DNA from: Sacculina carcini
Lineage: Eukaryota > Arthropoda > Thecostraca > Sacculinidae
Direction of reading: 5' to 3'
Assembly (NCBI GenBank): GCA_916048095.2
Contig: OU696591.1
Coordinates: 3,568,568 to 3,632,567, forward strand
DNA: 64,000 nucleotides
Part shown: one piece after another, positions 1 to 64,000 of the stretch
Numbering within the stretch: the first letter of the stretch is position 1
Layout of the letters: each line of letters opens with the position of its first letter
The notes under the pieces: generated by a model
Databases searched by the model: none
What the model saw: the letters and a program-made list of their open reading frames with translations, nothing else
Told to the model about the DNA's origin: nothing
Program-made: the position numbers and the translations under genes

Positions 1-763
1 TTCTTTATTTTCTTTATTTTCTTTATTTTCTTTATTTTCTTTATTTTCTTTATTTTCTTTATTTTCTTTATTTTCTTTATTTTCTTTATTTTCTTTATTT
101 TCTTTATTTTCTTTATTTTCTTTATTTTCTTTATTTTCTTTATTTTCTTTATTTTCTTTATTTTCTTTATTTTCTTTATTTTCTTTATTTTCTTTATTTT
201 CTTTATTTTCTTTATTTTCTTTATTTTCTTTATTTTCTTTATTTTCTTTATTTTCTTTATTTTCTTTATTTTCTTTATTTTCTTTATTTTCTTTATTTTC
301 TTTATTTTCTTTATTTTCTTTATTTTCTTTATTTTCTTTATTTTCTTTATTTTCTTTATTTTCTTTATTTTCTTTATTTTCTTTATTTTCTTTATTTTCT
401 TTATTTTCTTTATTTTCTTTATTTTCTTTATTTTCTTTATTTTCTTTATTTTCTTTATTTTCTTTATTTTCTTTATTTTCTTTATTTTCTTCATTTTCTT
501 TATTTTCTTTATTTTCTTTATTTTCTTTATTTTCTTTATTTTCTTTATTTTCTTTATTTTCTTTATTTTCTTTATTTTCTTTATTTTCTTTATTTTCTTT
601 ATTTTCTTTATTTTCTTTATTTTCTTTATTTTCTTTATTTTCTTTATTTTCTTTATTTTCTTTATTTTCTTTATTTTCTCCATTTTCTTTATTTTCTTTA
701 TTTTATTTATTTTATTTATTTTCTTTATTTTATTTATTTTCTTTATTTTATTTATTTTATTTA
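1..763. repeat. Minisatellite block T0 (partial)
   Basis: Cut by the window start. Almost uniform TTTTCTTTA. Single variants TTTTCTTCA (near 490) and TTTTCTCCA (near 680) break the run, and TTTTATTTA units become frequent in the last 70 bp before L1. Confidence 0.99.
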
Positions 764-826
764 ATTCATCCAATTTATTTCGATTATTTGTGTGTAGAGT
801 TTAGTGTTGAGTGAAGAAAGTTATTA

Positions 827-894
827 CCTGGCTGGGATTCGAACCGAGGTCCTCGGGGTTCGAGCAGAGTCTTACGCGGTTCGGCCATTGTAGA
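827..894 (-). ncRNA. tRNA-like element with Pol III box A and box B (reference copy)
   Basis: Read on the - strand. Box B is GGTTCGAATCC at 845-835, an exact match to the tRNA consensus GGTTCGANNCC. Box A is TGGCCGAACCGC at 887-876, close to TRGCNNAGYNGG. The boxes are 42 nt apart start to start, against about 44 in a tRNA. The T arm is CTCGG, loop TTCGAAT, CCCAG, with one C-C mismatch. The acceptor arms (TCTACAA and CCAGGTA) do not pair and the D stem is poor, so this is not a working tRNA. It resembles the head of a tRNA-derived SINE or a tRNA-derived promoter. The same element occurs in all 53 spacers. Transcription is inferred only. Confidence 0.62.
844..856. other. Palindrome CCGAGGTCCTCGG inside the tRNA-like element
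   Basis: Perfect odd dyad with arms CCGAGG and CCTCGG around a central T. The outer bases TTCGAA (left) and TTCGAG (right, after two extra G) allow the stem to continue with a 2-nt bulge. In RNA or extruded DNA this long hairpin would compete with the tRNA fold. S5 and S10 carry a G-to-T change in it. Confidence 0.7.
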
Positions 895-921
895 TGTTCA
901 AGAGAGATGGTTTATATGTGG

Positions 922-929
922 TATATATA
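922..929 (-). promoter_or_regulatory. TATATATA box upstream of the tRNA-like element
   Basis: If the - strand RNA starts at 894 (7 nt before box A, as in tRNA numbering), TATATATA lies at -35 to -28, the usual place for a TATA element that helps TFIIIB or TBP. The box is symmetrical, so a + strand use directed at the right is equally possible from sequence. I saw it intact in both spacer types. Confidence 0.5.
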
Positions 930-941
930 GTGCGCAAGCAC
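930..941 (+). other. Small hairpin GTGC-GCAA-GCAC
   Basis: A 4-bp stem closed by GCAA, a GNRA-type tetraloop if transcribed from the + strand. It ends six bases before the point where long and short spacers diverge. Could be chance. Confidence 0.4.
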
Positions 942-960
942 GAGTGTACAATTAATATAT

Positions 961-1350
961 AGAATTGTGAGATACTTGTGGCGCACATGATACAATTGTG
1001 GCGCACGTATTAGATATATTAATGTTTATTATATTTGGTTATGCTAACTAAATTAATTTAGAGTTGTGAGACAAATGCACATGATACAATTGTGGCGCGC
1101 GTATTTGGTATATTAATGTTTATTATATTATGTTATGCTAATTAAATAAATTTAGAGAATTGTGAAACACTTGTGACGCACATGATACAATTGTGGCGCG
1201 CGTATTAGGTATATTAATGTTTTTTAAATTAGTTTGAGAATTAAATTAATTCATAGAATTGTGAGACACTTGTGGCGCACATGATACAATTGTGGCGCAC
1301 GTATTTCGTATATTAATGTTTATTATATTAGGTTATGATAATTAGTTGTG
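961..1350. repeat. Four tandem AT-rich subrepeats (~94-101 bp)
   Basis: Copies start at about 961, 1060, 1156 and 1255. Each begins AGAATTGTGA or a variant, contains ACATGATACAATTGTGGCGC (starting at 985, 1079, 1180 and 1279) and then TATATTAATGTTT. Copy 2 lacks several bases near CTTGTGG. Inside copy 1 the 11-mer TTGTGGCGCAC occurs twice, 20 bp apart (976-986 and 996-1006). Each copy has the palindrome ACAATTGT. The four copies differ more from one another than the same copy differs between spacers, so this inner duplication is older than array expansion. Confidence 0.92.
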
Positions 1351-1367
1351 TTAAGACAAGTTGATTT

Positions 1368-1372
1368 AAAAA
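1368..1372 (-). terminator. T5 run on the - strand (second met)
   Basis: AAAAA on + reads TTTTT on -, a possible Pol III stop for transcripts entering from the right. L21 and L23-L25 have six A here. Confidence 0.35.
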
Positions 1373-1390
1373 TATAATGAAATTAAATTG

Positions 1391-1395
1391 AAAAA
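1391..1395 (-). terminator. T5 run on the - strand (first met)
   Basis: AAAAA on +. For a - strand transcript coming from the right, this is the first run of four or more T after the minisatellite, any short spacer and the GC module. Present at the equivalent place in the long spacers; short spacers have none. Confidence 0.4.
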
Positions 1396-1470
1396 TATTT
1401 ATCAAGTGTGTTTAAACGGGTGAATAGACGGTGGATGGTAGAAGATGTCTATAACAATGATTTGTTCAAA

Positions 1471-1484
1471 CTGCGCATGCGCAG
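1471..1484. promoter_or_regulatory. NRF1-like palindrome CTGCGCATGCGCAG, copy 1
   Basis: Perfect 14-bp palindrome containing TGCGCATGCGCA, the ideal NRF1 (Drosophila Ewg family) core. Followed directly by ACGTCA. Confidence 0.55.
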
Positions 1485-1497
1485 ACGTCAGCGCGGT

Positions 1498-1518
1498 ATC
1501 ACGTACGCGGTGCGTGAT
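1498..1518. other. Inverted repeat in the GC module
   Basis: Arms ATCACGTAC and GTGCGTGAT around GCG, with one non-Watson-Crick position in nine. The second half-copy has lost this dyad. Confidence 0.6.
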
Positions 1519-1529
1519 TGTGCACCATC

Positions 1530-1542
1530 CAAGGTTACCTTG
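1530..1542. promoter_or_regulatory. Dyad CAAGGTTACCTTG
   Basis: Arms CAAGGT and ACCTTG around a central T. Paralogous to the CAAGGTGACCTTG at 1632-1644. Confidence 0.55.
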
Positions 1543-1545
1543 AGA

Positions 1546-1560
1546 TGGCGCCAGACTGGC
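1546..1560. other. Overlapping palindromes TGGCGCCA and GCCAGACTGGC
   Basis: TGGCGCCA at 1546-1553 and GCCAGACTGGC at 1550-1560 share four bases. Copies L23 and L24 carry a G-to-A change that breaks the second dyad. Confidence 0.55.
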
Positions 1561-1579
1561 GGGGAATGTGTTTGATGTA

Positions 1580-1593
1580 CTGCGCATGCGCAG
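1580..1593. promoter_or_regulatory. NRF1-like palindrome CTGCGCATGCGCAG, copy 2
   Basis: Identical to the copy at 1471-1484, 109 bp downstream. Confidence 0.55.
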
Positions 1594-1631
1594 ACGTCAG
1601 CGCGGTATCATGGTGTGTGCATTGCATCAGC

Positions 1632-1645
1632 CAAGGTGACCTTGA
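1632..1645. promoter_or_regulatory. Dyad CAAGGTGACCTTG with nuclear-receptor half site
   Basis: The right part TGACCTTGA (1637-1645) is the exact complement of TCAAGGTCA, the monomer site of the ERR, SF-1 and FTZ-F1 receptors. In L18 and L19 the site reads TGACTTTGA. Confidence 0.5.
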
Positions 1646-1647
1646 AT

Positions 1648-1668
1648 GCAGTGCTGAGTCAGCACTGC
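1648..1668. promoter_or_regulatory. 21-bp perfect dyad containing a T-MARE
   Basis: Arms GCAGTGCTGA and TCAGCACTGC around a central G. The core TGCTGAGTCAGCA (1652-1664) is the exact 13-bp T-MARE bound by large and small Maf and CNC/bZIP dimers, with an AP-1 site (TGAGTCA) at its centre. Confidence 0.6.
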
Positions 1669-1676
1669 TGACGTCA
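1666..1676. promoter_or_regulatory. CRE TGACGTCA / partial C-MARE
   Basis: TGACGTCA at 1669-1676 is the full CREB/ATF palindrome. With TGC before it, it also matches 11 bases of the C-MARE. It lies 6 bp before the first minisatellite unit. Confidence 0.55.
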
Positions 1677-1682
1677 TCTATA

Positions 1683-2348
1683 TTTTCTTTATTTTCTTTA
1701 TTTTCTTTATTTTCTTTATTTTCTTTATTTTCTTTATTTTCTTTATTTTCTTTATTTTCTTTATTTTCTTTATTTTCTTTATTTTCTTTATTTTCTTTAT
1801 TTTCTTTATTTTCTTTATTTTCTTTATTTTCTCTATTTTCTTTATTTTCTTTATTTTCTTTATTTTCTTTATTCTCTTTATTTTCTTTATTTTCTTTATT
1901 TTCTTTATTTTCTTTATTTTCTTTATTTTCTTTATTTTCTTTATTTTCTTTATTTTCTTTATTTTCTCTATTTTCTCTATTTTCTTTATTTTCTTTATTT
2001 TATTTATTTTCTTTATTTTATTTATTTTATTTATTTTCTTTATTTTCTTTATTTTCTTTATATTCTTTATTTTATTTATTTTCTTTATTTTATTTATTTT
2101 CTTCATTTTATTTATTTTATTTATTTTATTTATTTTCTTTATATTCTTTATTTTATTTATTTTCTTTATTTTATTTATTTTCTTCATTTTATTTATTTTC
2201 TTTATTTTCTTTATTTTCTTTATTTTCTTTATTTTCTTTATTTTATTTATTTTCTTCATTTTATTTATTTTCTTTATTTTCTTTATTTTCTTTATTTTCA
2301 TTATTTTCTTTATTTTCTTTATTTTCTTTATTTTATTTATTTTATTTA
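1683..2348. repeat. Minisatellite block T1
   Basis: 666 bp, 74 units exactly. Left half TTTTCTTTA with some TTTTCTCTA; right half rich in TTTTATTTA, TTTTCTTCA and TATTCTTTA. Counterpart of T5. Confidence 0.99.
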
Positions 2349-2534
2349 ATTCATCCAATTTATTTCGATTATTTGTGTGTAGAGTTTAGTGTTGAGTGAA
2401 GAAAGTTATTACCTGGCTGGGATTCGAACCGAGGTCCTCGGGGTTCGAGCAGAGTCTTACGCGGTCCGGCCATTGTAGATGTTCAAGAGAGATGGTTTAT
2501 ATGTGGTATATATAGTGCGCAAGCACGAGTGTTA
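2349..2534. repeat. Short spacer S1 (reference copy)
   Basis: 186 bp. Same as the first 168 bp of a long spacer (tRNA-like element 2412-2479, TATATATA after it), then GAGTGT joins TATTTTC of the next block. It has C at 2466 where every long spacer has T, changing the conserved A14 of box A to G on the - strand. Confidence 0.97.
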
Positions 2535-3137
2535 TTTTCTTTATTTTCTTTATTTTCTTTATTTTCTTTATTTTCTTTATTTTCTTTATTTTCTTTATTT
2601 TCTTTATTTTCTTTATTTTCTTTATTTTCTTTATTTTCTTTATTTTCTTTATTTTCTTTATTTTCTTTATTTTCTTTATTTTCTTTATTTTCTTTATTTT
2701 CTTTATTTTCTTTATTTTCTTTATTTTCTTTATTTTCTTTATTTTCTTTATTTTATTTATTTTATTTATTTTATTTTTTTTTTATTTTTTTTTTTTTTCA
2801 TTTATTTTCTTTATTTTCTTCATTTTCTTTATTTTCTTCATTTTCTTTATTTTCTTTATTTTCTTTATTTTCTTTATTTTCTTTATTTTCTTTATTTTCT
2901 TTATTCTCTCTATTTTCTTTATTTTCTTTATTTTATTTATTTTCTTTATTTTCTTTATTTTATTTATTTTCTTTATTTTATTTATTTTATTTATTTTATT
3001 TATTTTCTTTATTTTATTTATTTTCTTCATTTTATTTATTTCATTTATTTTCTTTATTTTCTTTATTTTCTTTATTTTCTTTATTTTCTTTATTTTCTTT
3101 ATTTTCTTTATTTTCTTTATTTTATTTATTTTATTTA
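2535..3137. repeat. Minisatellite block T2
   Basis: 603 bp, 67 units. Contains a poly-T tract at about 2774-2798, also found in T6 and T17, that still adds up to whole 9-bp units. Confidence 0.99.
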
Positions 3138-4056
3138 ATTCATCCAATTTATTTCGATTATTTGTGTGTAGAGTTTAGTGTTGAGTGAAGAAAGTTATTA
3201 CCTGGCTGGGATTCGAACCGAGGTCCTCGGGGTTCGAGCAGAGTCTTACGCGGTTCGGCCATTGTAGATGTTCAAGAGAGATGGTTTATATGTGGTATAT
3301 ATAGTGCGCAAGCACGAGTGTACAATTAATATATAGAATTGTGAGATACTTGTGGCGCACATGATACAATTGTGGCGCACGTATTAGATATATTAATGTT
3401 TATTAAATTTGGTTATGCTAACTAAATTAATTTAGAGTTGTGAGACAAATGCACATGATACAATTGTGGCGCGCGTATTTGGTATATTAATGTTTATTAT
3501 ATTATGTTATGCTAATTAAATAAATTTAGAGAATTGTGAAACACTTGTGACGCACATGATACAATTGTGGCGCGCGTATTAGGTATATTAATGTTTTTTA
3601 AATTAGTTTGAGAATTAAATTAATTCATAGAATTGTGAGACACTTGTGGCGCACATGATATAATTGTGGCGCACGTATTTCGTATATTAATGTTTATTAT
3701 ATTAGGTTATGATAATTAGTTGTGTTAAGACAAGTTGATTTAAAAATATAATGAAATTAAATTGAAAAATATTTATCAAGTGTGTTTAAACGGGTGAATA
3801 GACGGTGGATGGTAGAAGATGTCTATAACAATGATTTGTTCAAACTGCGCATGCGCAGACGTCAGCGCGGTATCACGTACGCGGTGCGTGATTGTGCACC
3901 ATCCAAGGTTACCTTGAGATGGCGCCAGACTGGCGGGGAATGTGTTTGATGTACTGCGCATGCGCAGACGTCAGCGCGGTATCATGGTGTGTGCATTGCA
4001 TCAGCCAAGGTGACCTTGAATGCAGTGCTGAGTCAGCACTGCTGACGTCATCTATA
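3138..4056. repeat. Long spacer L2
   Basis: tRNA-like element 3201-3268; GC module 3845-4050. Carries TATTAAATTTGG (about 3402) and GATATAATTG (about 3657), markers shared only with L4 and L10. Confidence 0.97.
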
Positions 4057-4263
4057 TTTTCTTTATTTTCTTTATTTTCTTTATTTTCTTTATTTTCTTT
4101 ATTTTCTTTATTTTCTTTATTTTCTTTATTTTCTTTATTTTCTTTATTTTCTTTATTTTCTTTATTTTATTTATTTTCTTCATTTTATTTATTTTCTTTA
4201 TTTTCTTTATTTTCATTATTTTCTATATTTTCTTTATTTTCTTTATTTTATTTATTTTATTTA
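4057..4263. repeat. Minisatellite block T3
   Basis: 207 bp, 23 units. Ends with a TTTTCATTA, TTTTCTATA pair shared with T7, T9, T18 and T20. Confidence 0.99.
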
Positions 4264-4449
4264 ATTCATCCAATTTATTTCGATTATTTGTGTGTAGAGT
4301 TTAGTGTTGAGTGAAGAAAGTTATTACCTGGCTGGGATTCGAACCGAGGTCCTCGGGGTTCGAGCAGAGTCTTACGCGGTCCGGCCATTGTAGATGTTCA
4401 AGAGAGATGGTTTATATGTGGTATATATAGTGCGCAAGCACGAGTGTTA
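4264..4449. repeat. Short spacer S2
   Basis: tRNA-like element 4327-4394, C variant in box A. Confidence 0.96.
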
Positions 4450-5268
4450 TTTTCTTTATTTTCTTTATTTTCTTTATTTTCTTTATTTTCTTTATTTTCT
4501 TTATTTTCTTTATTTTCTTTATTTTCTTTATTTTCTTGATTTTCTTGATTTTCTTGATTTTCTTTATTTTCTTTATTTTCTTTATTTTCTTTATTTTCTT
4601 TATTTTCTTTATTTTCTTTATTTTCTTTATTTTCTTTATTTTCTTTATTTTCTTTATTTTCTTTATTTTCTTTATTTTCTTTATTTTCTTTATTTTCTTT
4701 ATTTTCTTTATTTTCTTTATTTTCTTTATTTTCTTTATTTTCTTTATTTTCTTTATTTTCTTCATTTTCTTCATTTTCTTCATTTTCTTTATTTTCTTTA
4801 TTTTCTTTATTTTCTTTATTTTCTTTATTTTCTTTATTTTCTTTATTTTCTTTATTTTCTTTATTTTCTTTATTTTATTTATTTTATTTATTTTATTTAT
4901 TTTATTTATTTTATTTATTTTATTTATTTTATTTATTTTCTTTATTTTATTTATTTTCTTTATTTTCTTTATTTTCTTTATTTTCTTTATTTTCTTTATT
5001 TTCTTTATTTTCTCTATTTTCTTTATTTTCTTTATTTTATTAATTTTCTTGATTTTATTTATTTTCTTTATTTTCTTTATTTTATTTATTTTATTTATTT
5101 TATTTATTTTCTTTATTTTATTTATTTTCTTCATTTTATTTATTTCATTTATTTTCTTTATTTTCTTTATTTTCTTTATTTTCTTTATTTTCTTTATTTT
5201 CTTTATTTTCTTTATTTTCTTTATTTTCTTTATTTTCTTTATTTTCTTTATTTTATTTATTTTATTTA
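4450..5268. repeat. Minisatellite block T4
   Basis: 819 bp, 91 units. Has three TTTTCTTGA units near 4535-4560, three TTTTCTTCA near 4760-4790, then a TTTTATTTA run. T8 and T19 repeat this order with two TTTTCTTGA. Confidence 0.99.
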
Positions 5269-6187
5269 ATTCATCCAATTTATTTCGATTATTTGTGTGT
5301 AGAGTTTAGTGTTGAGTGAAGAAAGTTATTACCTGGCTGGGATTCGAACCGAGGTCCTCGGGGTTCGAGCAGAGTCTTACGCGGTTCGGCCATTGTAGAT
5401 GTTCAAGAGAGATGGTTTATATGTGGTATATATAGTGCGCAAGCACGAGTGTACAATTAATATATAGAATTGTGAGATACTTGTGGCGCACATGATACAA
5501 TTGTGGCGCACGTATTAGATATATTAATGTTTATTATATTTGGTTATGCTAACTAAATTAATTTAGAGTTGTGAGACAAATGCACATGATACAATTGTGG
5601 CGCGCGTATTTGGTATATTAATGTTTATTATATTATGTTATGCTAATTAAATAAATTTAGAGAATTGTGAAACACTTGTGACGCACATGATACAATTGTG
5701 GCGCGCGTATTAGGTATATTAATGTTTTTTAAATTAGTTTGAGAATTAAATTAATTCATAGAATTGTGAGACACTTGTGGCGCACATGATACAATTGTGG
5801 CGCACGTATTTCGTATATTAATGTTTATTATATTAGGTTATGATAATTAGTTGTGTTAAGACAAGTTGATTTAAAAATATAATGAAATTAAATTGAAAAA
5901 TATTTATCAAGTGTGTTTAAACGGGTGAATAGACGGTGGATGGTAGAAGATGTCTATAACAATGATTTGTTCAAACTGCGCATGCGCAGACGTCAGCGCG
6001 GTATCACGTACGCGGTGCGTGATTGTGCACCATCCAAGGTTACCTTGAGATGGCGCCAGACTGGCGGGGAATGTGTTTGATGTACTGCGCATGCGCAGAC
6101 GTCAGCGCGGTATCATGGTGTGTGCATTGCATCAGCCAAGGTGACCTTGAATGCAGTGCTGAGTCAGCACTGCTGACGTCATCTATA
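5269..6187. repeat. Long spacer L3
   Basis: tRNA-like element 5332-5399; GC module 5976-6181. I saw no difference from L1. Confidence 0.97.
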
Positions 6188-6853
6188 TTTTCTTTATTTT
6201 CTTTATTTTCTTTATTTTCTTTATTTTCTTTATTTTCTTTATTTTCTTTATTTTCTTTATTTTCTTTATTTTCTTTATTTTCTTTATTTTCTTTATTTTC
6301 TTTATTTTCTTTATTTTCTTTATTTTCTTTATTTTCTTTATTTTCTTTATTTTCTCTATTTTCTTTATTTTCTTTATTTTCTTTATTTTCTTTATTCTCT
6401 TTATTTTCTTTATTTTCTTTATTTTCTTTATTTTCTTTATTTTCTTTATTTTCTTTATTTTCTCTATTTTCTCTATTTTCTTTATTTTCTTTATTTTATT
6501 TATTTTCTTTATTTTATTTATTTTATTTATTTTCTTTATTTTCTTTATTTTCTTTATATTCTTTATTTTATTTATTTTCTTTATTTTATTTATTTTCTTC
6601 ATTTTATTTATTTTATTTATTTTCTTTATATTCTTTATTTTATTTATTTTCTTTATTTTATTTATTTTCTTCATTTTATTTATTTTATTTATTTTATTTA
6701 TTTTCTTTATTTTCTTTATTTTCTTTATTTTCTTTATTTTCTTTATTTTATTTATTTTCTTCATTTTATTTATTTTCTTTATTTTCTTTATTTTCTTTAT
6801 TTTCATTATTTTCTTTATTTTCTTTATTTTCTTTATTTTATTTATTTTATTTA
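6188..6853. repeat. Minisatellite block T5
   Basis: 666 bp, 74 units, the same length and variant order as T1 apart from small internal shifts. Its sequence recurs as the right half of T16. Confidence 0.99.
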
Positions 6854-7039
6854 ATTCATCCAATTTATTTCGATTATTTGTGTGTAGAGTTTAGTGTTGA
6901 GTGAAGAAAGTTATTACCTGGCTGGGATTCGAACCGAGGTCCTCGGGGTTCGAGCAGAGTCTTACGCGGTCCGGCCATTGTAGATGTTCAAGAGAGATGG
7001 TTTATATGTGGTATATATAGTGCGCAAGCACGAGTGTTA
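6854..7039. repeat. Short spacer S3
   Basis: tRNA-like element 6917-6984, C variant. Confidence 0.96.
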
Positions 7040-7669
7040 TTTTCTTTATTTTCTTTATTTTCTTTATTTTCTTTATTTTCTTTATTTTCTTTATTTTCTT
7101 TATTTTCTTTATTTTCTTTATTTTCTTTATTTTCTTTATTTTCTTTATTTTCTTTATTTTCTTTATTTTCTTTATTTTCTTTATTTTCTTTATTTTCTTT
7201 ATTTTCTTTATTTTCTTTATTTTCTTTATTTTCTTTATTTTCTTTATTTTCTTTATTTTCTTTATTTTCTTTATTTTCTTTATTTTATTTATTTTATTTA
7301 TTTTATTTTTTATTTATTTTTTTTTTTTTTCATTTATTTTCTTTATTTTCTTCATTTTCTTTATTTTCTTCATTTTCTTTATTTTCTTTATTTTCTTTAT
7401 TTTCTTTATTTTCTTTATTTTCTTTATTTTCTTTATTCTCTCTATTTTCTTTATTTTCTTTATTTTATTTATTTTCTTTATTTTCTTTATTTTATTTATT
7501 TTCTTTATTTTATTTATTTTATTTATTTTATTTATTTTCTATATTTTATTTATTTTCTTCATTTTATTTATTTCATTTATTTTCTTTATTTTCTTTATTT
7601 TCTTTATTTTCTTTATTTTCTTTATTTTCTTTATTTTCTTTATTTTCTTTATTTTATTTATTTTATTTA
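7040..7669. repeat. Minisatellite block T6
   Basis: 630 bp, 70 units, with the poly-T tract at about 7305-7331. Confidence 0.99.
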
Positions 7670-8588
7670 ATTCATCCAATTTATTTCGATTATTTGTGTG
7701 TAGAGTTTAGTGTTGAGTGAAGAAAGTTATTACCTGGCTGGGATTCGAACCGAGGTCCTCGGGGTTCGAGCAGAGTCTTACGCGGTTCGGCCATTGTAGA
7801 TGTTCAAGAGAGATGGTTTATATGTGGTATATATAGTGCGCAAGCACGAGTGTACAATTAATATATAGAATTGTGAGATACTTGTGGCGCACATGATACA
7901 ATTGTGGCGCACGTATTAGATATATTAATGTTTATTAAATTTGGTTATGCTAACTAAATTAATTTAGAGTTGTGAGACAAATGCACATGATACAATTGTG
8001 GCGCGCGTATTTGGTATATTAATGTTTATTATATTATGTTATGCTAATTAAATAAATTTAGAGAATTGTGAAACACTTGTGACGCACATGATACAATTGT
8101 GGCGCGCGTATTAGGTATATTAATGTTTTTTAAATTAGTTTGAGAATTAAATTAATTCATAGAATTGTGAGACACTTGTGGCGCACATGATATAATTGTG
8201 GCGCACGTATTTCGTATATTAATGTTTATTATATTAGGTTATGATAATTAGTTGTGTTAAGACAAGTTGATTTAAAAATATAATGAAATTAAATTGAAAA
8301 ATATTTATCAAGTGTGTTTAAACGGGTGAATAGACGGTGGATGGTAGAAGATGTCTATAACAATGATTTGTTCAAACTGCGCATGCGCAGACGTCAGCGC
8401 GGTATCACGTACGCGGTGCGTGATTGTGCACCATCCAAGGTTACCTTGAGATGGCGCCAGACTGGCGGGGAATGTGTTTGATGTACTGCGCATGCGCAGA
8501 CGTCAGCGCGGTATCATGGTGTGTGCATTGCATCAGCCAAGGTGACCTTGAATGCAGTGCTGAGTCAGCACTGCTGACGTCATCTATA
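7670..8588. repeat. Long spacer L4
   Basis: tRNA-like element 7733-7800; GC module 8377-8582. Same two markers as L2 and L10. Confidence 0.97.
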
Positions 8589-8786
8589 TTTTCTTTATTT
8601 TCTTTATTTTCTTTATTTTCTTTATTTTCTTTATTTTCTTTATTTTCTTTATTTTCTTTATTTTCTTTATTTTCTTTATTTTCTTTATTTTATTTATTTT
8701 CTTCATTTTATTTATTTTCTTTATTTTCTTTATTTTCATTATTTTCTATATTTTCTTTATTTTCTTTATTTTATTTATTTTATTTA
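8589..8786. repeat. Minisatellite block T7
   Basis: 198 bp, 22 units. Confidence 0.99.
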
Positions 8787-8972
8787 ATTCATCCAATTTA
8801 TTTCGATTATTTGTGTGTAGAGTTTAGTGTTGAGTGAAGAAAGTTATTACCTGGCTGGGATTCGAACCGAGGTCCTCGGGGTTCGAGCAGAGTCTTACGC
8901 GGTCCGGCCATTGTAGATGTTCAAGAGAGATGGTTTATATGTGGTATATATAGTGCGCAAGCACGAGTGTTA
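8787..8972. repeat. Short spacer S4
   Basis: tRNA-like element 8850-8917, C variant. Confidence 0.96.
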
Positions 8973-9791
8973 TTTTCTTTATTTTCTTTATTTTCTTTAT
9001 TTTCTTTATTTTCTTTATTTTCTTTATTTTCTTTATTTTCTTTATTTTCTTTATTTTCTTGATTTTCTTGATTTTCTTTATTTTCTTTATTTTCTTTATT
9101 TTCTTTATTTTCTTTATTTTCTTTATTTTCTTTATTTTCTTTATTTTCTTTATTTTCTTTATTTTCTTTATTTTCTTTATTTTCTTTATTTTCTTTATTT
9201 TCTTTATTTTCTTTATTTTCTTTATTTTCTTTATTTTCTTTATTTTCTTTATTTTCTTTATTTTCTTTATTTTCTTCATTTTCTTCATTTTCTTCATTTT
9301 CTTTATTTTCTTTATTTTCTTTATTTTCTTTATTTTCTTTATTTTCTTTATTTTCTTTATTTTCTTTATTTTCTTTATTTTCTTTATTTTATTTATTTTA
9401 TTTATTTTATTTATTTTATTTATTTTATTTATTTTATTTATTTTATTTATTTTATTTATTTTCTTTATTTTATTTATTTTCTTTATTTTCTTTATTTTCT
9501 TTATTTTCTTTATTTTCTTTATTTTCTTTATTTTCTCTATTTTCTTTATTTTCTTTATTTTATTAATTTTCTTTATTTTATTTATTTTCTTTATTTTCTT
9601 TATTTTATTTATTTTATTTATTTTATTTATTTTCTTTATTTTATTTATTTTCTTCATTTTATTTATTTCATTTATTTTCTTTATTTTCTTTATTTTCTTT
9701 ATTTTCTTTATTTTCTTTATTTTCTTTATTTTCTTTATTTTATTTATTTTCTTTATTTTCTTTATTTTCTTTATTTTATTTATTTTATTTA
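8973..9791. repeat. Minisatellite block T8
   Basis: 819 bp, 91 units; two TTTTCTTGA and three TTTTCTTCA units in the same order as T4. Confidence 0.99.
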
Positions 9792-53462: not shown

Positions 53463-54381
53463 ATTCATCCAATTTATTTCGATTATTTGTGTGTAGAGTT
53501 TAGTGTTGAGTGAAGAAAGTTATTACCTGGCTGGGATTCGAACCGAGGTCCTCGGGGTTCGAGCAGAGTCTTACGCGGTTCGGCCATTGTAGATGTTCAA
53601 AAGAGATGGTTTATATGTGGTATATATAGTGCGCAAGCACGAGTGTACAATTAATATATAGAATTGTGAGATACTTGTGGCGCACATGATACAATTGTGG
53701 CGCACGTATTAGATATATTAATGTTTATTATATTTGGTTTTGCTAACTAAATTAATTTAGAGTTGTGAGACAAATGCACATGATACAATTGTGGCGCGCG
53801 TATTTGGTATATTAATGCTTATTATATTATGTTATGCTAATTAAATAAATTTAGAGAGTTGTGAAACACTTGTGACGCACATGATACAATTGTGGCGCGC
53901 GTATTAGGTATATTAATGTTTTTTAAATTAGTTTGAGAATTAAATTAATTCATAGAATTGTGAGACACTTGTGGCGCACATGATACAATTGTGGCGCACG
54001 TATTTCGTATATTAATGTTTATTATATTAGGTTATGATAATTAGTTGTGTTAAAACAAGTTGATTAAAAAATATAATGAAATTAATTTGAAAAATATTTA
54101 TCAAGTGTGTTTAAACGGGTGAATAGACGGTGGATGGTAGAAGATGTCTATAACAATGATTTGTTCAAACTGCGCATGCGCAGACGTCAGCGCGGTATCA
54201 CGTACGCGGTGCGTGATTGTGCACCATCCAAGGTTACCTTGAGATGGCGCCAGACTGACGGGGAATGTGTTTGATGTACTGCGCATGCGCAGACGTCAGC
54301 GCGGTATCATGGTGTGTGCATTGCATCAGCCAAGGTGACCTTGAATGCAGTGCTGAGTCAGCACTGCTGACGTCATCTATA
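53463..54381. repeat. Long spacer L23
   Basis: tRNA-like element 53526-53593; GC module 54170-54375. Shares with L24: TTCAAAAGAG (about 53596), GAGAGTTGTGAAAC in subrepeat 3, and G-to-A at 54258 in the GCCAGACTGGC dyad. Confidence 0.97.
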
Positions 54382-55120
54382 TTTTCTTTATTTTCTTTAT
54401 TTTCTTTATTTTCTTTATTTTCTTTATTTTCTTTATTTTCTTTATTTTCTTTATTTTCTTTATTTTCTTTATTTTCTTTATTTTCTTTATTTTCTTTATT
54501 TTCTTAATTTTCTTAATTTTCTTAATTTTCTTAATTTTCTTAATTTTCTTAATTTTCTTAATTTTCTTAATTTTCTTAATTTTCTTAATTTTCTTAATTT
54601 TCTTAATTTTCTTTATTTTCTTTATTTTCTTTATTTTCTTTATTTTATTTATTTTATTTATTTTCTTTATTTTCTTTATTTTCTTTATTTTCTTTATTTT
54701 CTTTATTTTCTTTATTTTCTTTATTTTCTTTATTTTCTTTATTTTCTTTATTTTCTTTATTTTCTTTATTTTCTTTATTTTCTTTATTTTCTTTATTTTC
54801 TTTATTTTCTCTATTTTCTCTATTTTCTTTATTTTCTTTATTTTATTTATTTTATTTTTTTTTATTTATTTTCTTTATATTCTTTATTTTATTTATTTTC
54901 TTTATTTTATTTATTTTCTTCATTTTATTTATTTTATTTATTTTATTTATTTTATTTATTTTATTTATTTTATTTATTTTATTTATTTTATTTATTTTCT
55001 TTATTTTCTTTATTTTCTTTATTTTCTTTATTTTATTTATTTTCTTCATTTTATTTATTTTCTTTATTTTCTTTATTTTCATTATTTTCTTTATTTTCTT
55101 TATTTTATTTATTTTATTTA
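54382..55120. repeat. Minisatellite block T45
   Basis: 739 bp: 82 units plus one base, with a TTTTTTTTT tract near 54855. Twelve TTTTCTTAA units at 54499-54606. Confidence 0.99.
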
Positions 55121-55306
55121 ATTCATCCAATTTATTTCGATTATTTGTGTGTAGAGTTTAGTGTTGAGTGAAGAAAGTTATTACCTGGCTGGGATTCGAA
55201 CCGAGGTCCTCGGGGTTCGAGCAGAGTCTTACGCGGTCCGGCCATTGTAGATGTTCAAGAGAGATGGTTTATATGTGGTATATATAGTGCGCAAGCACGA
55301 GTGTTA
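55121..55306. repeat. Short spacer S23
   Basis: tRNA-like element 55184-55251, C variant. Confidence 0.96.
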
Positions 55307-55945
55307 TTTTCTTTATTTTCTTTATTTTCTTTATTTTCTTTATTTTCTTTATTTTCTTTATTTTATTTATTTTCTTTATTTTCTTTATTTTATTTATTTT
55401 CTTTATTTTATTTATTTTCTTTATTTTCTTTATTTTCTTTATTTTCTTTATTTTCTTTATTTTCTTTATTTTCTTTATTTTCTTTATTTTCTTTATTTTC
55501 TTTATTTTCTTTATTTTCTTTATTTTCTTTATTTTCTTTATTTTCTTTATTTTCTTTATTTTCTTTATTTTCTTTATTTTATTTATTTTATTTATTTTAT
55601 TTATTTTATTTATTTTATTTATTTTATTTATTTTCTTTATTTTCTTTATTTTCTTTATTTTCTTTATTTTCTTTATTTTCTTTATTTTATTTATTTTATT
55701 TATTTTCTTTATTTTCTTTATTTTCTTTATTTTCTTTATTTTCTTTATTTTCTTTATTTTCTTTATTTTATTTATTTTATTTATTTTCTTTATTTTCTTT
55801 ATTTTCTTTATTTTCTTTATTTTATTTATTTTATTTATTTTCTTCATTTTATTTATTTTATTTATTTTCTTTATTTTCATTATTTTCTTTATTTTCTCTA
55901 TTTTCTTTATTTTCTTTATTTTCTTTATTTTATTTATTTTATTTA
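55307..55945. repeat. Minisatellite block T46
   Basis: 639 bp, 71 units. Confidence 0.99.
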
Positions 55946-56864
55946 ATTCATCCAATTTATTTCGATTATTTGTGTGTAGAGTTTAGTGTTGAGTGAAGAA
56001 AGTTATTACCTGGCTGGGATTCGAACCGAGGTCCTCGGGGTTCGAGCAGAGTCTTACGCGGTTCGGCCATTGTAGATGTTCAAAAGAGATGGTTTATATG
56101 TGGTATATATAGTGCGCAAGCACGAGTGTACAATTAATATATAGAATTGTGAGATACTTGTGGCGCACATGATACAATTGTGGCGCACGTATTAGATATA
56201 TTAATGTTTATTATATTTGGTTTTGCTAACTAAATTAATTTAGAGTTGTGAGACAAATGCACATGATACAATTGTGGCGCGCGTATTTGGTATATTAATG
56301 CTTATTATATTATGTTATGCTAATTAAATAAATTTAGAGAGTTGTGAAACACTTGTGACGCACATGATACAATTGTGGCGCGCGTATTAGGTATATTAAT
56401 GTTTTTTAAATTAGTTTGAGAATTAAATTAATTCATAGAATTGTGAGACACTTGTGGCGCACATGATACAATTGTGGCGCACGTATTTCGTATATTAATG
56501 TTTATTATATTAGGTTATGATAATTAGTTGTGTTAAAACAAGTTGATTAAAAAATATAATGAAATTAATTTGAAAAATATTTATCAAGTGTGTTTAAACG
56601 GGTGAATAGACGGTGGATGGTAGAAGATGTCTATAACAATGATTTGTTCAAACTGCGCATGCGCAGACGTCAGCGCGGTATCACGTACGCGGTGCGTGAT
56701 TGTGCACCATCCAAGGTTACCTTGAGATGGCGCCAGACTGACGGGGAATGTGTTTGATGTACTGCGCATGCGCAGACGTCAGCGCGGTATCATGGTGTGT
56801 GCATTGCATCAGCCAAGGTGACCTTGAATGCAGTGCTGAGTCAGCACTGCTGACGTCATCTATA
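55946..56864. repeat. Long spacer L24
   Basis: tRNA-like element 56009-56076; GC module 56653-56858. Near twin of L23, with the same G-to-A at 56741. Confidence 0.97.
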
Positions 56865-57594
56865 TTTTCTTTATTTTCTTTATTTTCTTTATTTTCTTTA
56901 TTTTCTTTATTTTCTTTATTTTCTTTATTTTCTTTATTTTCTTTATTTTCTTTATTTTCTTTATTTTCTTTATTTTCTTTATTTTCTTAATTTTCTTAAT
57001 TTTCTTAATTTTCTTAATTTTCTTAATTTTCTTAATTTTCTTAATTTTCTTAATTTTCTTAATTTTCTTAATTTTCTTAATTTTCTTAATTTTCTTAATT
57101 TTCTTTATTTTCTTTATTTTCTTTATTTTCTTTATTTTATTTATTTTATTTATTTTCTTTATTTTCTTTATTTTCTTTATTTTCTTTATTTTCTTTATTT
57201 TCTTTATTTTCTTTATTTTCTTTATTTTCTTTATTTTCTTTATTTTCTTTATTTTCTTTATTTTCTTTATTTTCTTTATTTTCTCTATTTTCTCTATTTT
57301 CTTTATTTTCTTTATTTTATTTATTTTATTTTTTTTTATTCATTTTCTTTATATTCTTTATTTTATTTATTTTCTTTATTTTATTTATTTTCTTCATTTT
57401 ATTTATTTTATTTATTTTATTTATTTTATTTATTTTATTTATTTTATTTATTTTATTTATTTTATTTATTTTCTTTATTTTCTTTATTTTCTTTATTTTC
57501 TTTATTTTATTTATTTTCTTCATTTTATTTATTTTCTTTATTTTCTTTATTTTCATTATTTTCTTTATTTTCTTTATTTTATTTATTTTATTTA
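56865..57594. repeat. Minisatellite block T47
   Basis: 730 bp: 81 units plus one base. Thirteen TTTTCTTAA units at 56982-57098; otherwise like T45. Confidence 0.99.
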
Positions 57595-57780
57595 ATTCAT
57601 CCAATTTATTTCGATTATTTGTGTGTAGAGTTTAGTGTTGAGTGAAGAAAGTTATTACCTGGCTGGGATTCGAACCGAGGTCCTCGGGGTTCGAGCAGAG
57701 TCTTACGCGGTCCGGCCATTGTAGATGTTCAAGAGAGATGGTTTATATGTGGTATATATAGTGCGCAAGCACGAGTGTTA
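57595..57780. repeat. Short spacer S24
   Basis: tRNA-like element 57658-57725, C variant. The last short spacer with the GAGTGT-TATTTTC join. Confidence 0.96.
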
Positions 57781-58338
57781 TTTTCTTTATTTTCTTTATT
57801 TTCTTTATTTTCTTTATTTTCTTTATTTTCTTTATTTTATTTATTTTCTTTATTTTCTTTATTTTCTTTATTTTCTTTATTTTCTTTATTTTCTTTATTT
57901 TCTTTATTTTCTTTATTTTCTTTATTTTCTTTATTTTCTTTATTTTCTTTATTTTCTTTATTTTCTTTATTTTCTTTATTTTATTTATTTTATTTATTTT
58001 ATTTATTTTCTTTATTTTCTTTATTTTCTTTATTTTCTTTATTTTCTTTATTTTCTTTATTTTCTTTATTTTCTTTATTTTCTTTATTTTCTTTATTTTC
58101 TTTATTTTCTTTATTTTCTTTATTTTCTTTATTTTCTTTATTTTCTCTATTTTATTTATTTTCTTTATTTTATTTATTTTATTTATTTTCTTTATTTTAT
58201 TTATTTTATTTATTTTCTTTATTTTATTTATTTTCTTTATTTTATTTATTTTCTTCATTTTATTTATTTCATTTATTTTCTTTATTTTCTTTATTTTCTT
58301 TATTTTCTTTATTTTCTTTATTTTATTTATTTTATTTA
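57781..58338. repeat. Minisatellite block T48
   Basis: 558 bp, 62 units. Confidence 0.99.
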
Positions 58339-59257
58339 ATTCATCCAATTTATTTCGATTATTTGTGTGTAGAGTTTAGTGTTGAGTGAAGAAAGTTATT
58401 ACCTGGCTGGGATTCGAACCGAGGTCCTCGGGGTTCGAGCAGAGTCTTACGCGGTTCGGCCATTGTAGATGTTCAAGAGAGATGGTTTATATGTGGTATA
58501 TATAGTGCGCAAGCACGAGTGTACAATTAATATATAGAATTGTGAGATACTTGTGGCGCACATGATACAATTGTGGCGCACGTATTAGATATATTAATGT
58601 TTATTATATTTGGTTATGCTAACTAAATTAATTTAGAGTTGTGAGACAAATGCACATGATACAATTGTGGCGCGCGTATTTGGTATATTAATGTTTATTA
58701 TATTATGTTATGCTAATTAAATAAATTTAGAGAATTGTGAAACACTTGTGACGCACATGATACAATTGTGGCGCGCGTATTAGGTATATTAATGTTTTTT
58801 AAATTAGTTTGAGAATTAAATTAATTCATAGAATTGTGAGACACTTGTGGCGCACATGATACAATTGTGGCGCACGTATTTCGTATATTAATGTTTATTA
58901 TATTAGGTTATGATAATTAGTTGTGTTAAGACAAGTTGATTAAAAAATATAATGAAATTAAATTGAAAAATATTTATCAAGTGTGTTTAAACGGGTGAAT
59001 AGACGGTGGATGGTAGAAGATGTCTATAACAATGATTTGTTCAAACTGCGCATGCGCAGACGTCAGCGCGGTATCACGTACGCGGTGCGTGATTGTGCAC
59101 CATCCAAGGTTACCTTGAGATGGCGCCAGACTGGCGGGGAATGTGTTTGATGTACTGCGCATGCGCAGACGTCAGCGCGGTATCATGGTGTGTGCATTGC
59201 ATCAGCCAAGGTGACCTTGAATGCAGTGCTGAGTCAGCACTGCTGACGTCATCTATA
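58339..59257. repeat. Long spacer L25
   Basis: tRNA-like element 58402-58469; GC module 59046-59251. Has GATTAAAAAAT (near 58938) as in L21, but not the other L21 markers. No short spacer before L26. Confidence 0.97.
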
Positions 59258-60264
59258 TTTTCTTTATTTTCTTTATTTTCTTTATTTTCTTTATTTTCTT
59301 TATTTTCTTTATTTTCTTTATTTTCTTTATTTTCTTTATTTTCTTTATTTTCTTTATTTTCTTTATTTTCTTTATTTTCTTTATTTTCTCTATTTTCTTT
59401 ATTTTCTTTATTTTCTTTATTTTCTTTATTTTCTTTATTTTCTTTATTTTCTTTATTTTCTTTATTTTCTTTATTTTCTTTATTTTCTTTATTTTCTTTA
59501 TTTTCTTTATTTTCTCTATTTTCTCTATTTTCTTTATTTTCTTTATTTTATTTATTTTCTTTATTTTATTTATTTTATTTATTTTATTTATTTTCTTTAT
59601 TTTCTTTATTTTATTTATTTTCTTTATTTTCTTTATTTTCTTTATTTTCTTTATTTTCTTTATTTTCTTTATTTTCTTTATTTTCTTTATTTTCTTTATT
59701 TTATTTATTTTCTATATTTTCTTTATTTTCTTTATATTCTTTATTTTATTTATTTTCTTTATTTTATTTATTTCTTCATTTTATTTATTTTATTTATTTT
59801 ATTTATTTTATTTATTTTCTTTATATTCTTTATTTTATTTATTTTCTTTATTTTATTTATTTTCTTCATTTTCTTCATTTTCTTCATTTTATTTATTTTC
59901 TTTATTTTCTTTATTTTCTTTATTTTCTTTATTTTCTTTATTTTCTTTATTTTCTTTATTTTCTTTATTTTCTTTATTTTCTTTATTTTCTTTATTTTCT
60001 TTATTTTCTTTATTTTCTTTATTTTCTTTATTTTCTTTATTTTCTTTATTTTCTTTATTTTCTTTATTTTCTTTATTTTCTTTATTTTCTTTATTTTATT
60101 TATTTTATTTATTTTATTTATTTTATTTATTTTATTTATTTTATTTATTTTCTTTATTTTATTTATTTTCTTTATTTTCTTTATTTTATTTATTTTCTTT
60201 ATTTTCTTTATTTTCTTTATTTTCTTTATTTTCTTTATTTTCTTTATTTTCTTTATTTTATTTA
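59258..60264. repeat. Minisatellite block T49
   Basis: 1007 bp: 112 units minus one base, from an 8-bp TTTCTTCA unit near 59770. Confidence 0.99.
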
Positions 60265-61183
60265 ATTCATCCAATTTATTTCGATTATTTGTGTGTAGAG
60301 TTTAGTGTTGAGTGAAGAAAGTTATTACCTGGCTGGGATTCGAACCGAGGTCCTCGGGGTTCGAGCAGAGTCTTACGCGGTTCGGCCATTGTAGATGTTC
60401 AAGAGAGATGGTTTATATGTGGTATATATAGTGCGCAAGCACGAGTGTACAATTAATATATAGAATTGTGAGATACTTGTGGCGCACATGATACAATTGT
60501 GGCGCACGTATTAGATATATTAATGTTTATTATATTTGGTTATGCTAACTAAATTAATTTAGAGTTGTGAGACAAATGCACATGATACAATTGTGGCGCG
60601 CGTATTTGGTATATTAATGTTTATTATATTATGTTATGCTAATTAAATAAATTTAGAGAATTGTGAAACACTTGTGACGCACATGATACAATTGTGGCGC
60701 GCGTATTAGGTATATTAATGTTTTTTAAATTAGTTTGAGAATTAAATTAATTCATAGAATTGTGAGACACTTGTGGCGCACATGATACAATTGTGGCGCA
60801 CGTATTTCGTATATTAATGTTTATTATATTAGGTTATGATAATTAGTTGTGTTAAGACAAGTTGATTTAAAAATATAATGAAATTAAATTGAAAAATATT
60901 TATCAAGTGTGTTTAAACGGGTGAATAGACGGTGGATGGTAGAAGATGTCTATAACAATGATTTGTTCAAACTGCGCATGCGCAGACGTCAGCGCGGTAT
61001 CACGTACGCGGTGCGTGATTGTGCACCATCCAAGGTTACCTTGAGATGGCGCCAGACTGGCGGGGAATGTGTTTGATGTACTGCGCATGCGCAGACGTCA
61101 GCGCGGTATCATGGTGTGTGCATTGCATCAGCCAAGGTGACCTTGAATGCAGTGCTGAGTCAGCACTGCTGACGTCATCTATA
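60265..61183. repeat. Long spacer L26 (last long spacer)
   Basis: tRNA-like element 60328-60395; GC module 60972-61177. To its right only short spacers follow. Confidence 0.97.
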
Positions 61184-61948
61184 TTTTCTTTATTTTCTTT
61201 ATTTTCTTTATTTTCTTTATTTTCTTTATTTTCTTTATTTTCTTTATTTTCTTTATTTTCTTTATTTTCTTTATTTTCTTTATTTTCTTTATTTTCTTTA
61301 TTTTCTTTATTTTCTTTATTTTCTTTATTTTCTTTATTTTCTTTATTTTCTTTATTTTCTTTATTTTCTTTATTTTCTTTATTTTCTTTATTTTCTTTAT
61401 TTTCTTTATTTTCTTTATTTTCTTTATTTTCTTTATTTTATTTATTTTATTTATTTTATTTATTTTATTTATTTTCTTTATTTTCTTTATTTTCTTTATT
61501 TTCTTTATTTTCTTTATTTTCTTTATTTTCTTTATTTTCTTTATTTTCTTTATTTTCTTTATTTTCTTCATTTTCTTCATTTTCTTTATTTTCTTTATTT
61601 TCTTTATTTTCTTTATTTTCTTTATTTTCTTTATTTTCTTTATTTTCTTTATTTTCTTTATTTTCTTTATTTTCTTTATTTTCTTTATTTTCTTTATTTT
61701 CTTTATTTTCTTTATTTTCTTTATTTTCTTTATTTTCTTTATTTTCTTTATTTTCTTTATTTTCTGTATTTTCTGTATTTTCTTTATTTTCTTTATTTTC
61801 TTTATTTTCTTTATTTTCTTCATTTTCTTTATTTTCTTTATTTTCTTTATTTTCTTTATTTTCTTTATTTTCCTTATTTTCTTTATTTTCTTTATTTTCT
61901 TTATTTTCTTTATTTTGTTTATTTTCTTTATTTTCTTTATTTTATTTA
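61184..61948. repeat. Minisatellite block T50
   Basis: 765 bp, 85 units. Two TTTTCTGTA near 61760-61780 and one TTTTCCTTA near 61868, a pattern repeated in T51. Confidence 0.99.
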
Positions 61949-62140
61949 ATTCATCCAATTTATTTCGATTATTTGTGTGTAGAGTTTAGTGTTGAGTGAA
62001 GAGAGTTATTACCTGGCTGGGATTCGAACCGAGGTCCTCGGGGTTCGAGCAGAGTCTTACGCGGTCCGGCCATTGTAGATGTTCAAGAGAGATGGTTTAT
62101 ATGTGGTATATATAGTGCGCAAGCACGAGTGTACAATTAA
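61949..62140. repeat. Short spacer S25 (second junction class)
   Basis: 192 bp. tRNA-like element 62012-62079, C variant. Continues eight bases further than S1-S24 (ACAATTAA) before TTTTC. A-to-G at 62003, shared with S26. Confidence 0.96.
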
Positions 62141-62626
62141 TTTTCTTCATTTTCTTTATTTTCTTTATTTTCTTTATTTTCTTTATTTTCTTTATTTTCT
62201 TTATTTTCTTTATTTTCTTTATTTTCTTTATTTTCTTTATTTTCTTTATTTTCTTTATTTTCTTCATTTTCTTCATTTTCTTCATTTTCTTTATTTTCTT
62301 TATTTTCTTTATTTTCTTTATTTTCTTTATTTTCTTTATTTTCTTTATTTTCTTTATTTTCTTTATTTTCTTTATTTTCTTTATTTTCTTTATTTTCTTT
62401 ATTTTCTTTATTTTCTTTATTTTCTTTATTTTCTTTATTTTCTGTATTTTCTGTATTTTCTTTATTTTCTTTATTTTCTTTATTTTCTTTATTTTCTTTA
62501 TTTTCTTTATTTTCTTTATTTTCCTTATTTTCTTTATTTTCTTTATTTTCTTTATTTTCTTTATTTTCTTTATTTTCTTTATTTTCTTTATTTTCTTTAT
62601 TTTCTTTATTTTCTTTATTTTATTTA
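62141..62626. repeat. Minisatellite block T51
   Basis: 486 bp, 54 units, with the TTTTCTGTA pair near 62440-62460. Confidence 0.99.
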
Positions 62627-62818
62627 ATTCATCCAATTTATTTCGATTATTTGTGTGTAGAGTTTAGTGTTGAGTGAAGAGAGTTATTACCTGGCTGGGA
62701 TTCGAACCGAGGTCCTCGGGGTTCGAGCAGAGTCTTACGCGGTCCGGCCATTGTAGATGTTCAAGAGAGATGGTTTATATGTGGTATATATAGTGCGCAA
62801 GCACGAGTGTACAATTAA
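62627..62818. repeat. Short spacer S26 (second junction class)
   Basis: 192 bp. tRNA-like element 62690-62757, C variant; A-to-G at 62681. Confidence 0.96.
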
Positions 62819-63736
62819 TTTTCTTTATTTTCTTTATTTTCTTAATTTTCTTAATTTTCTTAATTTTCTTAATTTTCTTAATTTTCTTAATTTTCTTAAT
62901 TTTCTTAATTTTCTTAATTTTCTTAATTTTCTTAATTTTCTTAATTTTCTTAATTTTCTTAATTTTCTTAATTTTCTTAATTTTCTTAATTTTCTTAATT
63001 TTCTTAATTTTCTTAATTTTCTTAATTTTCTTAATTTTCTTAATTTTCTTAATTTTCTTAATTTTCTTAATTTTCTTAATTTTCTTAATTTTCTTAATTT
63101 TCTTAATTTTCTTAATTTTCTTAATTTTCTTAATTTTCTTAATTTTCTTAATTTTCTTAATTTTCTTAATTTTCTTAATTTTCTTTATTTTCTTTATTTT
63201 CTTTATTTTCTTTATTTTCTTTATTTTCTTTATTTTCTTTATTTTCTTTATTTTCTTTATTTTCTTTATTTTCTTTATTTTCTTTATTTTCTTTATTTTC
63301 ATTATTTTCATTATTTTCATTATTTTCATTATTTTCTTTATTTTCTTTATTTTCTTTATTTTCTATATTTTCTATATTTTCTTTATTTTCTTTATTTTCT
63401 TTATTTTCTTTATTTTCTTTATTTTCTTTATTTTCTTTATTTTCTTTATTTTCTTTATTTTCTTTTTTTTCTTTATTTTCTTTATTTTCTTTATTTTCTT
63501 TATTTTCTTTATTTTCTTTATTTTCTTTATTTTCTTTATTTTCTTTATTTTCTTTATTTTCTTTATTTTCTTTATTTTCTTTATTTTCTATATTTTCTTT
63601 ATTTTCTTTATTTTCTTTATTTTCTTTATTTTCTTTATTTTCTTTATTTTCTTTATTTTCTTTATTTTCTTTATTTTCTTTATTTTCTTTATTTTCTTTA
63701 TTTTCTTTATTTTCTTTATTTTCTTTATTTTCTTTA
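62819..63736. repeat. Minisatellite block T52
   Basis: 918 bp, 102 units. Holds 38 consecutive TTTTCTTAA (62837-63178) and four TTTTCATTA near 63298-63336. Ends in TTTTCTTTA, not the usual TTTTATTTA, at the spacer edge. Confidence 0.99.
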
Positions 63737-63928
63737 ATTCATCCAATTTATTTCGATTATTTGTGTGTAGAGTTTAGTGTTGAGTGAAGAAAGTTATTAC
63801 CTGGCTGGGATTCGAACCGAGGTCCTCGGGGTTCGAGCAGAGTCTTACGCGGTCCGGCCATTGTAGATGTTCAAGAGAGATGGTTTATATGTGGTATATA
63901 TAGTGCGCAAGCACGAGTGTACAATTAA
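63737..63928. repeat. Short spacer S27 (second junction class)
   Basis: 192 bp. tRNA-like element 63800-63867, C variant, without the A-to-G of S25 and S26. Confidence 0.96.
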
Positions 63929-64000
63929 TTTTCTTCATTTTCTTTATTTTCTTTATTTTCTTTATTTTCTATATTTTCATTATTTTCATTATTTTCTTTA
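63929..64000. repeat. Minisatellite block T53 (partial)
   Basis: 72 bp seen, 8 units, cut by the window end. Already mixed: TTTTCTTCA, TTTTCTATA and two TTTTCATTA. Confidence 0.98.

Follow-up and report, generated by a model that had tools for sequence, protein, structure and literature searches.

In the genome of Sacculina carcini (264 Mb), a stretch of 64,000 nucleotides (nt) at 3.57-3.63 Mb of a 7.5-Mb contig, referred to here as the window, is filled by a satellite array (1..64000, no strand assigned). The array consists of a 9-bp minisatellite, (TTTATTTTC/TTTATTTTA)n on the + strand, which is cut by 53 spacers, 26 long and 27 short, in a single orientation throughout the window. The spacers carry the elements of an RNA polymerase III (Pol III)-like promoter on the - strand. 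The satellite and its promoter are considered here in relation to the terminal inverted repeats of a dispersed Maverick/Polinton transposon.

Promoter elements in the window

On the - strand the minisatellite reads (TAAAGAAAA)n, as in the example stretch at 1..763. The first long spacer spans approximately 764..1676 (- strand). On the same strand it contains an exact box B, GGTTCGAATCC (835..845), a box A of consensus form, TGGCCGAACCG (877..887), and the TATA motif TATATATA (922..929), which lies at -35 to -28 relative to a nominal start at 894. Four repeats of about 99 bp follow (950..1344, - strand, detected by TRF), and beyond them are two T5 runs on the - strand (1368..1395; the runs are 1391-1395 and 1368-1372), the earliest possible Pol III stops in this spacer. 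A GC-rich block with the palindromes TGACGTCA and TGCGCATGCGCA occupies 1440..1680 (no strand assigned). The first short spacer, approximately 2341..2533 on the - strand, holds the promoter segment only, without the upstream part. Its box B is exact (2420..2430, - strand), its box A is TGGCCGGACCG (2462..2472, - strand), and TATATATA is at 2507..2514 (- strand).

The same elements recur across the array. Box B is exact, on the - strand, in all 53 spacers, and box A and box B are separated by 42 nt, start to start, in every one of them. In type 2 Pol III promoters, box A lies 30-67 bp from box B. TATATATA occurs 53 times on the - strand, once per spacer, and its start lies 42 nt (50 spacers) or 40 nt (three spacers) upstream of box A. 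Box A takes two forms. The form TGGCCGAACCG, which fits TRGYNNANNNG, is found in 29 spacers (26 long and three short), and TGGCCGGACCG, in which G replaces the conserved A of position 7, is found in the other 24, all short. The available part of PMC11724288 defines an A-box match by four positions, T1, G3, A7 and G11. A preliminary description of this DNA had placed both boxes in all 53 spacers, with TATATATA at -35 to -28. This holds for box B and, with the two offsets given above, for TATATATA, whereas box A has its consensus form in 29 spacers only.

A strict pair of box A and box B was obtained in none of 20,000 first-order Markov resamplings of the long spacer; chance does not account for the pair. 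The short spacer lacks a strict pair because of its altered box A. Since the 53 spacers are copies of one unit, the promoter counts as one event and not as 53. Among 40 flanks of the genome's tRNA genes, a TATA starts within -42 to -22 in 16, with 18 starts at -33 to -29, and elsewhere within the 60 bases examined in 12. The position of the spacer TATA is close to that often found at these genes. TATA-like boxes of type 2 genes are placed at -30/-24 in the available text of PMC10137851. Judged by sequence, a type 2 Pol III-like promoter is truly present in the spacers.

Runs of at least four T number 60 on the - strand of the window and 3,848 on the + strand. All 60 are in long-type units; the minisatellite and the short spacers have no such run on the - strand, as the preliminary description had noted, and the T5 run that it placed at 1391-1395 is where it said. 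From the nominal start to the first run, the - strand path measures 607-3,904 nt (median 1,491.5) at 52 of the 53 sites, the path of the 53rd, which was left out, exiting the window. The earlier estimate of about 1-3 kb was slightly narrow. The absence of runs of four T (T4) results from strand composition.

The probable transposon source of the satellite

A search for dispersed copies with a query taken from one of them, locus L063, gave 40 scored places among 185 candidates. Twenty-four of these places form 12 inverted pairs, 15.2-18.6 kb apart, and in each pair the left member is on the - strand and the right member on the + strand. The copy on contig C1 (5.19/5.20 Mb) has two ends that are 99.7% identical over 969 bp, and its termini, AGTAGTAG...CTACTACT, are flanked by ACAAG. 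The copy on C18, located in TA repeats, has ends that are 98.6% alike over 812 bp. A 3-kb piece inside the C9 copy (L075) contains an integrase (PF00665 rve, E 8.1e-14, 52.2 bits with a cut-off of 32.6), a Pox_A32-type ATPase (PF04665, E 4.1e-6, 26.9 bits with a cut-off of 22.8), and a fragment of a DNA polymerase (phrog_1907, E 4.6e-19). The polymerase fragment had no Pfam match and no relevant PDB match, and the transposon ATPase, used as a query against viral contigs, gave no match.

Maverick/Polinton elements are about 15-20 kb long, with terminal inverted repeats, AG...CT ends and a 6-bp target-site duplication. They encode a retroviral-type integrase, an A32/FtsK-like packaging ATPase, a protein-primed family B DNA polymerase, and major and minor capsid proteins. 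The dispersed source element, of about 16 kb, is by its sequence a Maverick/Polinton transposon, sharing with this group its size, terminal inverted repeats, integrase, A32-type ATPase and DNA polymerase. Unlike such an element, the window has only an amplified piece of an element end.

From the inside outward, the transposon end consists of a GC-rich block, repeats of about 99 bp, the TATA, box A, box B, a short body, an A-rich tract and an outermost segment of about 370 bp. The promoter in the terminal inverted repeat faces outward, toward the element end. Among 23 transposon-end loci, none of the 18 with a recognised terminus has T4 between promoter and end; in the other five, T4 was found 148 nt past box B in L063 and at 615 in L108. 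This absence is uninformative because 86% of resampled versions of one transposon end also have no T4. Loci L119, L120 and L134 are transposon ends that keep the body, with other DNA upstream. L119 and L120 retain box B with no consensus box A, and in box B of L134 a C is replaced by T.

The long spacer matches the transposon end from the GC-rich block through the body. A BLAST comparison of window 951-1680 with the C1 element end gave matches of 77-97% in pieces, the 99-bp repeats of the window are found in the inner terminal repeat of the transposon too, and the GC-rich block matches the inner part of the end. The outermost 380 bases of the C1 end have no match in the window, and the first long spacer corresponds to part of the terminal inverted repeat minus the outermost 370 bp or so. 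The minisatellite stands in the position of the A-rich tract, which is of AATAAA type in L061-L072. Short spacers have the TATA-to-body segment only. The GC-rich block, both at window 1440-1680 and in L076, contains TGACGTCA, TGCGCATGCGCA and TGCTGACTCAGCA, which we take to resemble cyclic AMP response element (CRE), NRF1 and Maf sites.

On C32, the whole transposon end is repeated head to tail at two sites that are 99.6% alike, successive box B copies being 1,880 bp apart. The core of box A is AACTG at the transposon ends, AACCG in the long units of the satellite and, for the most part, GACCG in its short units. We consider it likely that the satellite of the window is a tandem amplification of a piece of the Maverick/Polinton terminal repeat, and that the promoter, useful to the transposon, is a passenger in the satellite. 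Dispersed elements with the segment, repeated ends on C32, and long and short spacers can all be read from the assembly as apparent stages. Their order would be from transposon end to tandem ends, then to long units with an expanded tract, and last to short units; the stages are seen, and the proposed order in time is helped by the box A series. In the course of this process the A-rich tract would have grown into the 9-bp minisatellite, long spacers would have arisen before short spacers, and unequal exchange and conversion would have homogenised the arrays. The C32 repeats (L112 and L113; 564000-566400 and 607300-610000) have no expanded minisatellite and perhaps represent an early satellite stage.

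The order of promoter and then A-rich tract is already present in the transposon ends, and the orientation of the satellite is therefore one inherited event. The preliminary description had read this orientation as one that permits long purine-rich RNAs and forbids the reverse. Long T4-free transcripts of the - strand are indeed permitted, but an adaptation of the satellite is not supported, since the transposon ends have the same order.

Promoter conservation and the rival explanations

Transposon ends picked by the promoter query showed very low promoter diversity, but this selection biases the result. They were replaced by 13 ends picked by their outer part, whose promoter places, with the probable exception of L126, were new relative to the first set. 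Ten of the 13 have an exact box B, and three have no box B in the approximately 1.1 kb examined, that of L126 being probably farther off. After the near-duplicate L115 was dropped, together with L119 and L120, which have unrelated upstream DNA, seven ends remained. Variable columns in these ends numbered 3 of 53 in boxes A-B versus 40 of 194 in the flanking non-repeat segments (Fisher p 0.006). Against single flanking segments, p ranged from 0.00007 to 0.077.

The satellite copies give a different picture. Among 27 distinct satellite cores, variable columns numbered 5 of 30 in the boxes versus 21 of 158 elsewhere, with no contrast in constraint. The changed box A has 1,750 exact copies genome-wide, and the box B pattern is found at 2,699 places, transposon ends included. 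The C56G change in box B was counted 43 times on C29: a block of about 98 kb (3.43-3.53 Mb) contains 38 of these copies, and five are on the other side of the array. This change lowers TFIIIC binding 370-fold in yeast, according to the available part of PMC11811891. Since C56G copies have been amplified, amplification does not need an intact box B. C56T is present in one copy, the dispersed end L134, and a control change in none, counts too few for a test of CpG-transition selection on box B. For the transposon the promoter is probably of use, a view that draws on constraint in a small set and on a presumed product. The copies in the satellite do not appear to be kept up as promoters. Pol III may to some extent read through into the minisatellite, but nothing in these data indicates that the satellite exists for that.

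These results bear on the proposal of an active Pol III gene in every satellite unit, which would produce purine-rich RNAs of 1-3 kb in an orientation kept to avoid terminators. The exact box B and TATA in all 53 spacers, a TATA near its tRNA-gene position and the T4-free path of 607-3,904 nt are as expected of such genes. However, the orientation was already that of the transposon end, where the absence of T4 is expected by chance. Box A is altered in 24 of the 53 window spacers and in 1,750 copies genome-wide, box B copies with C56G have been amplified, and the boxes are conserved no better than the rest of the spacer, all of which makes active genes quite unlikely. The sequence of promoter, short body and A-rich tail is also the order of a tRNA-derived short interspersed element (SINE), which could be proposed as the source of the satellite. 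Of the 51 tRNA genes listed for the genome, 40 were aligned with the promoter segment. With box B included, the segment scored 55, whereas 300 resampled versions reached 52 at most; with box B masked it scored 35, within the resampled range (mean 30.4, standard deviation 3.7), and the tRNA likeness therefore rests on box B. ARAGORN detected no tRNA in the 64-kb window and Rfam none in window 1-8000 at E<=10. Folding of the segment gave no cloverleaf, with a stability not clearly above that of shuffles (z -0.8, -0.6). A tRNA origin beyond the boxes thus receives no support from ARAGORN, Rfam, the masked alignment or folding. Moreover, the dispersed copies include the upstream 99-bp repeats, which would be absent from a Pol III transcript, and they are the inverted ends of approximately 16-kb elements with integrase and polymerase. 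A SINE origin is highly improbable and was rejected on the ground that the segment sits in these inverted ends. A different sequence with a tRNA-like head, L051 (C21:2852873-2852939), matches Rfam tRNA with 36 bits and is perhaps a SINE.

Several observations weigh against derivation from a Maverick/Polinton end with a passenger promoter. At C1, the one copy where the target-site duplication was read, it measures 5 bp, or 6 only with a shared first A. Five of seven predicted transposon proteins have no Pfam match at E 0.01. Frames of 445 and 506 amino acids, from pieces of the copies on C20 and C2, are possible capsid proteins with no significant family match, and the 445-residue frame has no PDB match. 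About 540 bp between the repeated ends of the C32 unit do not match the C1 end. The exact box B in all 53 window spacers speaks against a mere passenger. The constraint test has p 0.077 when the nearest outer segment is used alone. It is also small, with seven ends, of which L122 and L124 are apparently the opposite ends of a single element, and its columns are not independent; the evidence for constraint in the transposon is therefore moderate.

The layout of the arrays was mapped on three of 43 contigs, among the matches listed. On C1, copies are in + orientation from 8,905,380 to 8,962,378, and 16 copies are in - orientation from 8,962,689, two listings agreeing. The C1 switch of orientation lies within minisatellite near 8,962,530 (L065). 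At the left of the same array, L064 (C1:8904900-8906400) has two satellite units followed by GC-rich non-satellite DNA, and the satellite resumes, among the matches listed, at 8,913,850. The 40 matches listed on C12 comprise 18 + copies at 5.11-5.15 Mb and 22 - copies at 5.27-5.47 Mb; - copies are present at 5.18-5.24 Mb as well. On C29, the long units listed comprise 75 in + orientation at 3.11-3.24 Mb and 25 in - orientation from 3.43 Mb onward, with 11 + and 138 - long units counted beyond those listed, and spot samples together with the window fit a single switch at about 3.33-3.39 Mb. The three mapped arrays look like mirror images whose halves run toward each other. In a tandem dimer of the transposon, a right end (+) would adjoin a left end (-), and this would be a simple origin for the layout. 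A junction pattern for mirror-image arrays was found only on C1, and samples on C3, C6 and C10 for further arrays matched in none of seven cases, the samples being small. TTAGG-type repeats are present in L132.

The arrays might instead be centromeric, with box B copies as TFIIIC landing sites or with a mirror layout that sends transcription streams toward each other. In agreement with this, those on C12 and C29 are interrupted, extend over hundreds of kb and lie near mid-chromosome; the C1 array, of about 80 kb, is at 60% of the contig. In all three, the listed copies are + on the left and - on the right. This proposal nevertheless relies on the chromosome position of the arrays on three of 43 contigs, among the matches listed; 11 of the 86 + strand long units of C29 lie outside the matches listed, with no fixed place. 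One order in three of three arrays has a chance probability of 1/8, which alone is not significant, and many copies have altered boxes. We regard a centromeric role as rather unlikely. It is similarly doubtful that a Polinton with a working outward Pol III promoter in each terminal repeat gave rise, through amplified ends, to mirror arrays in the middle of chromosomes that help to mark the centromere via TFIIIC sites or converging transcripts. The outward promoter proposed for the Polinton end would in principle have a counterpart in the small Pol III RNAs that DNA viruses produce.

Known systems and significance

The literature already contains tandem repeats that have Pol III features, satellites derived from the inverted repeats of transposons and one satellite similar to Polinton. 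The Tetris TIR-220 satellite of Drosophila virilis likewise forms arrays from transposon terminal inverted repeats, but Tetris is a foldback element, and a Pol III promoter or purine minisatellite is not mentioned in the available part of PMC4079207. The origin of satellites from transposon inverted repeats is stated generally in the accessible text of PMC12628747. CgiSat52 of Crassostrea gigas is listed as similar to DNA/Polinton in a satellite table (PMC8268682, available part). It differs from the present satellite in its 1,656-bp unit and its share of 0.06% of the genome, and the same portion describes no promoter.

The amphibian repeats PolIII/TAN (newt), OAX/satellite I (Xenopus), Rana/polIII and Hy/polIII are also tandem repeats with a tRNA-like sequence. 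According to the available part of PMC10702118, Hy/polIII has no box B and PolIII/TAN is transcribed in vitro. Unlike the units described here, those of the amphibian repeats measure approximately 200-360 nt where stated, with no embedded purine minisatellite in that text, and a tRNA or SINE origin, not a Polinton end, is suggested or doubted for them. The squamate SINE-derived satellites covered in the same part of PMC10702118 likewise come from mobile-element parts with a Pol III head, their source being a SINE as opposed to a DNA transposon. A Pol III-type promoter in a Polinton end, or the whole combination, was not found in the open-licence literature among the matches listed.

The apparent origin of the satellite shows in concrete terms how a giant virus-like transposon could lead to a chromosome-scale satellite, and likely intermediates are present within one genome. 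It also offers a natural experiment, in which tens of near-identical satellite copies with a change in box B that weakens TFIIIC binding in yeast stand beside intact copies. Because C56G and intact copies share an array, it can be tested without engineering whether transcribing a satellite by Pol III has any effect. In the transposon itself, a promoter that appears to be constrained raises the question of a Pol III product of Polintons.

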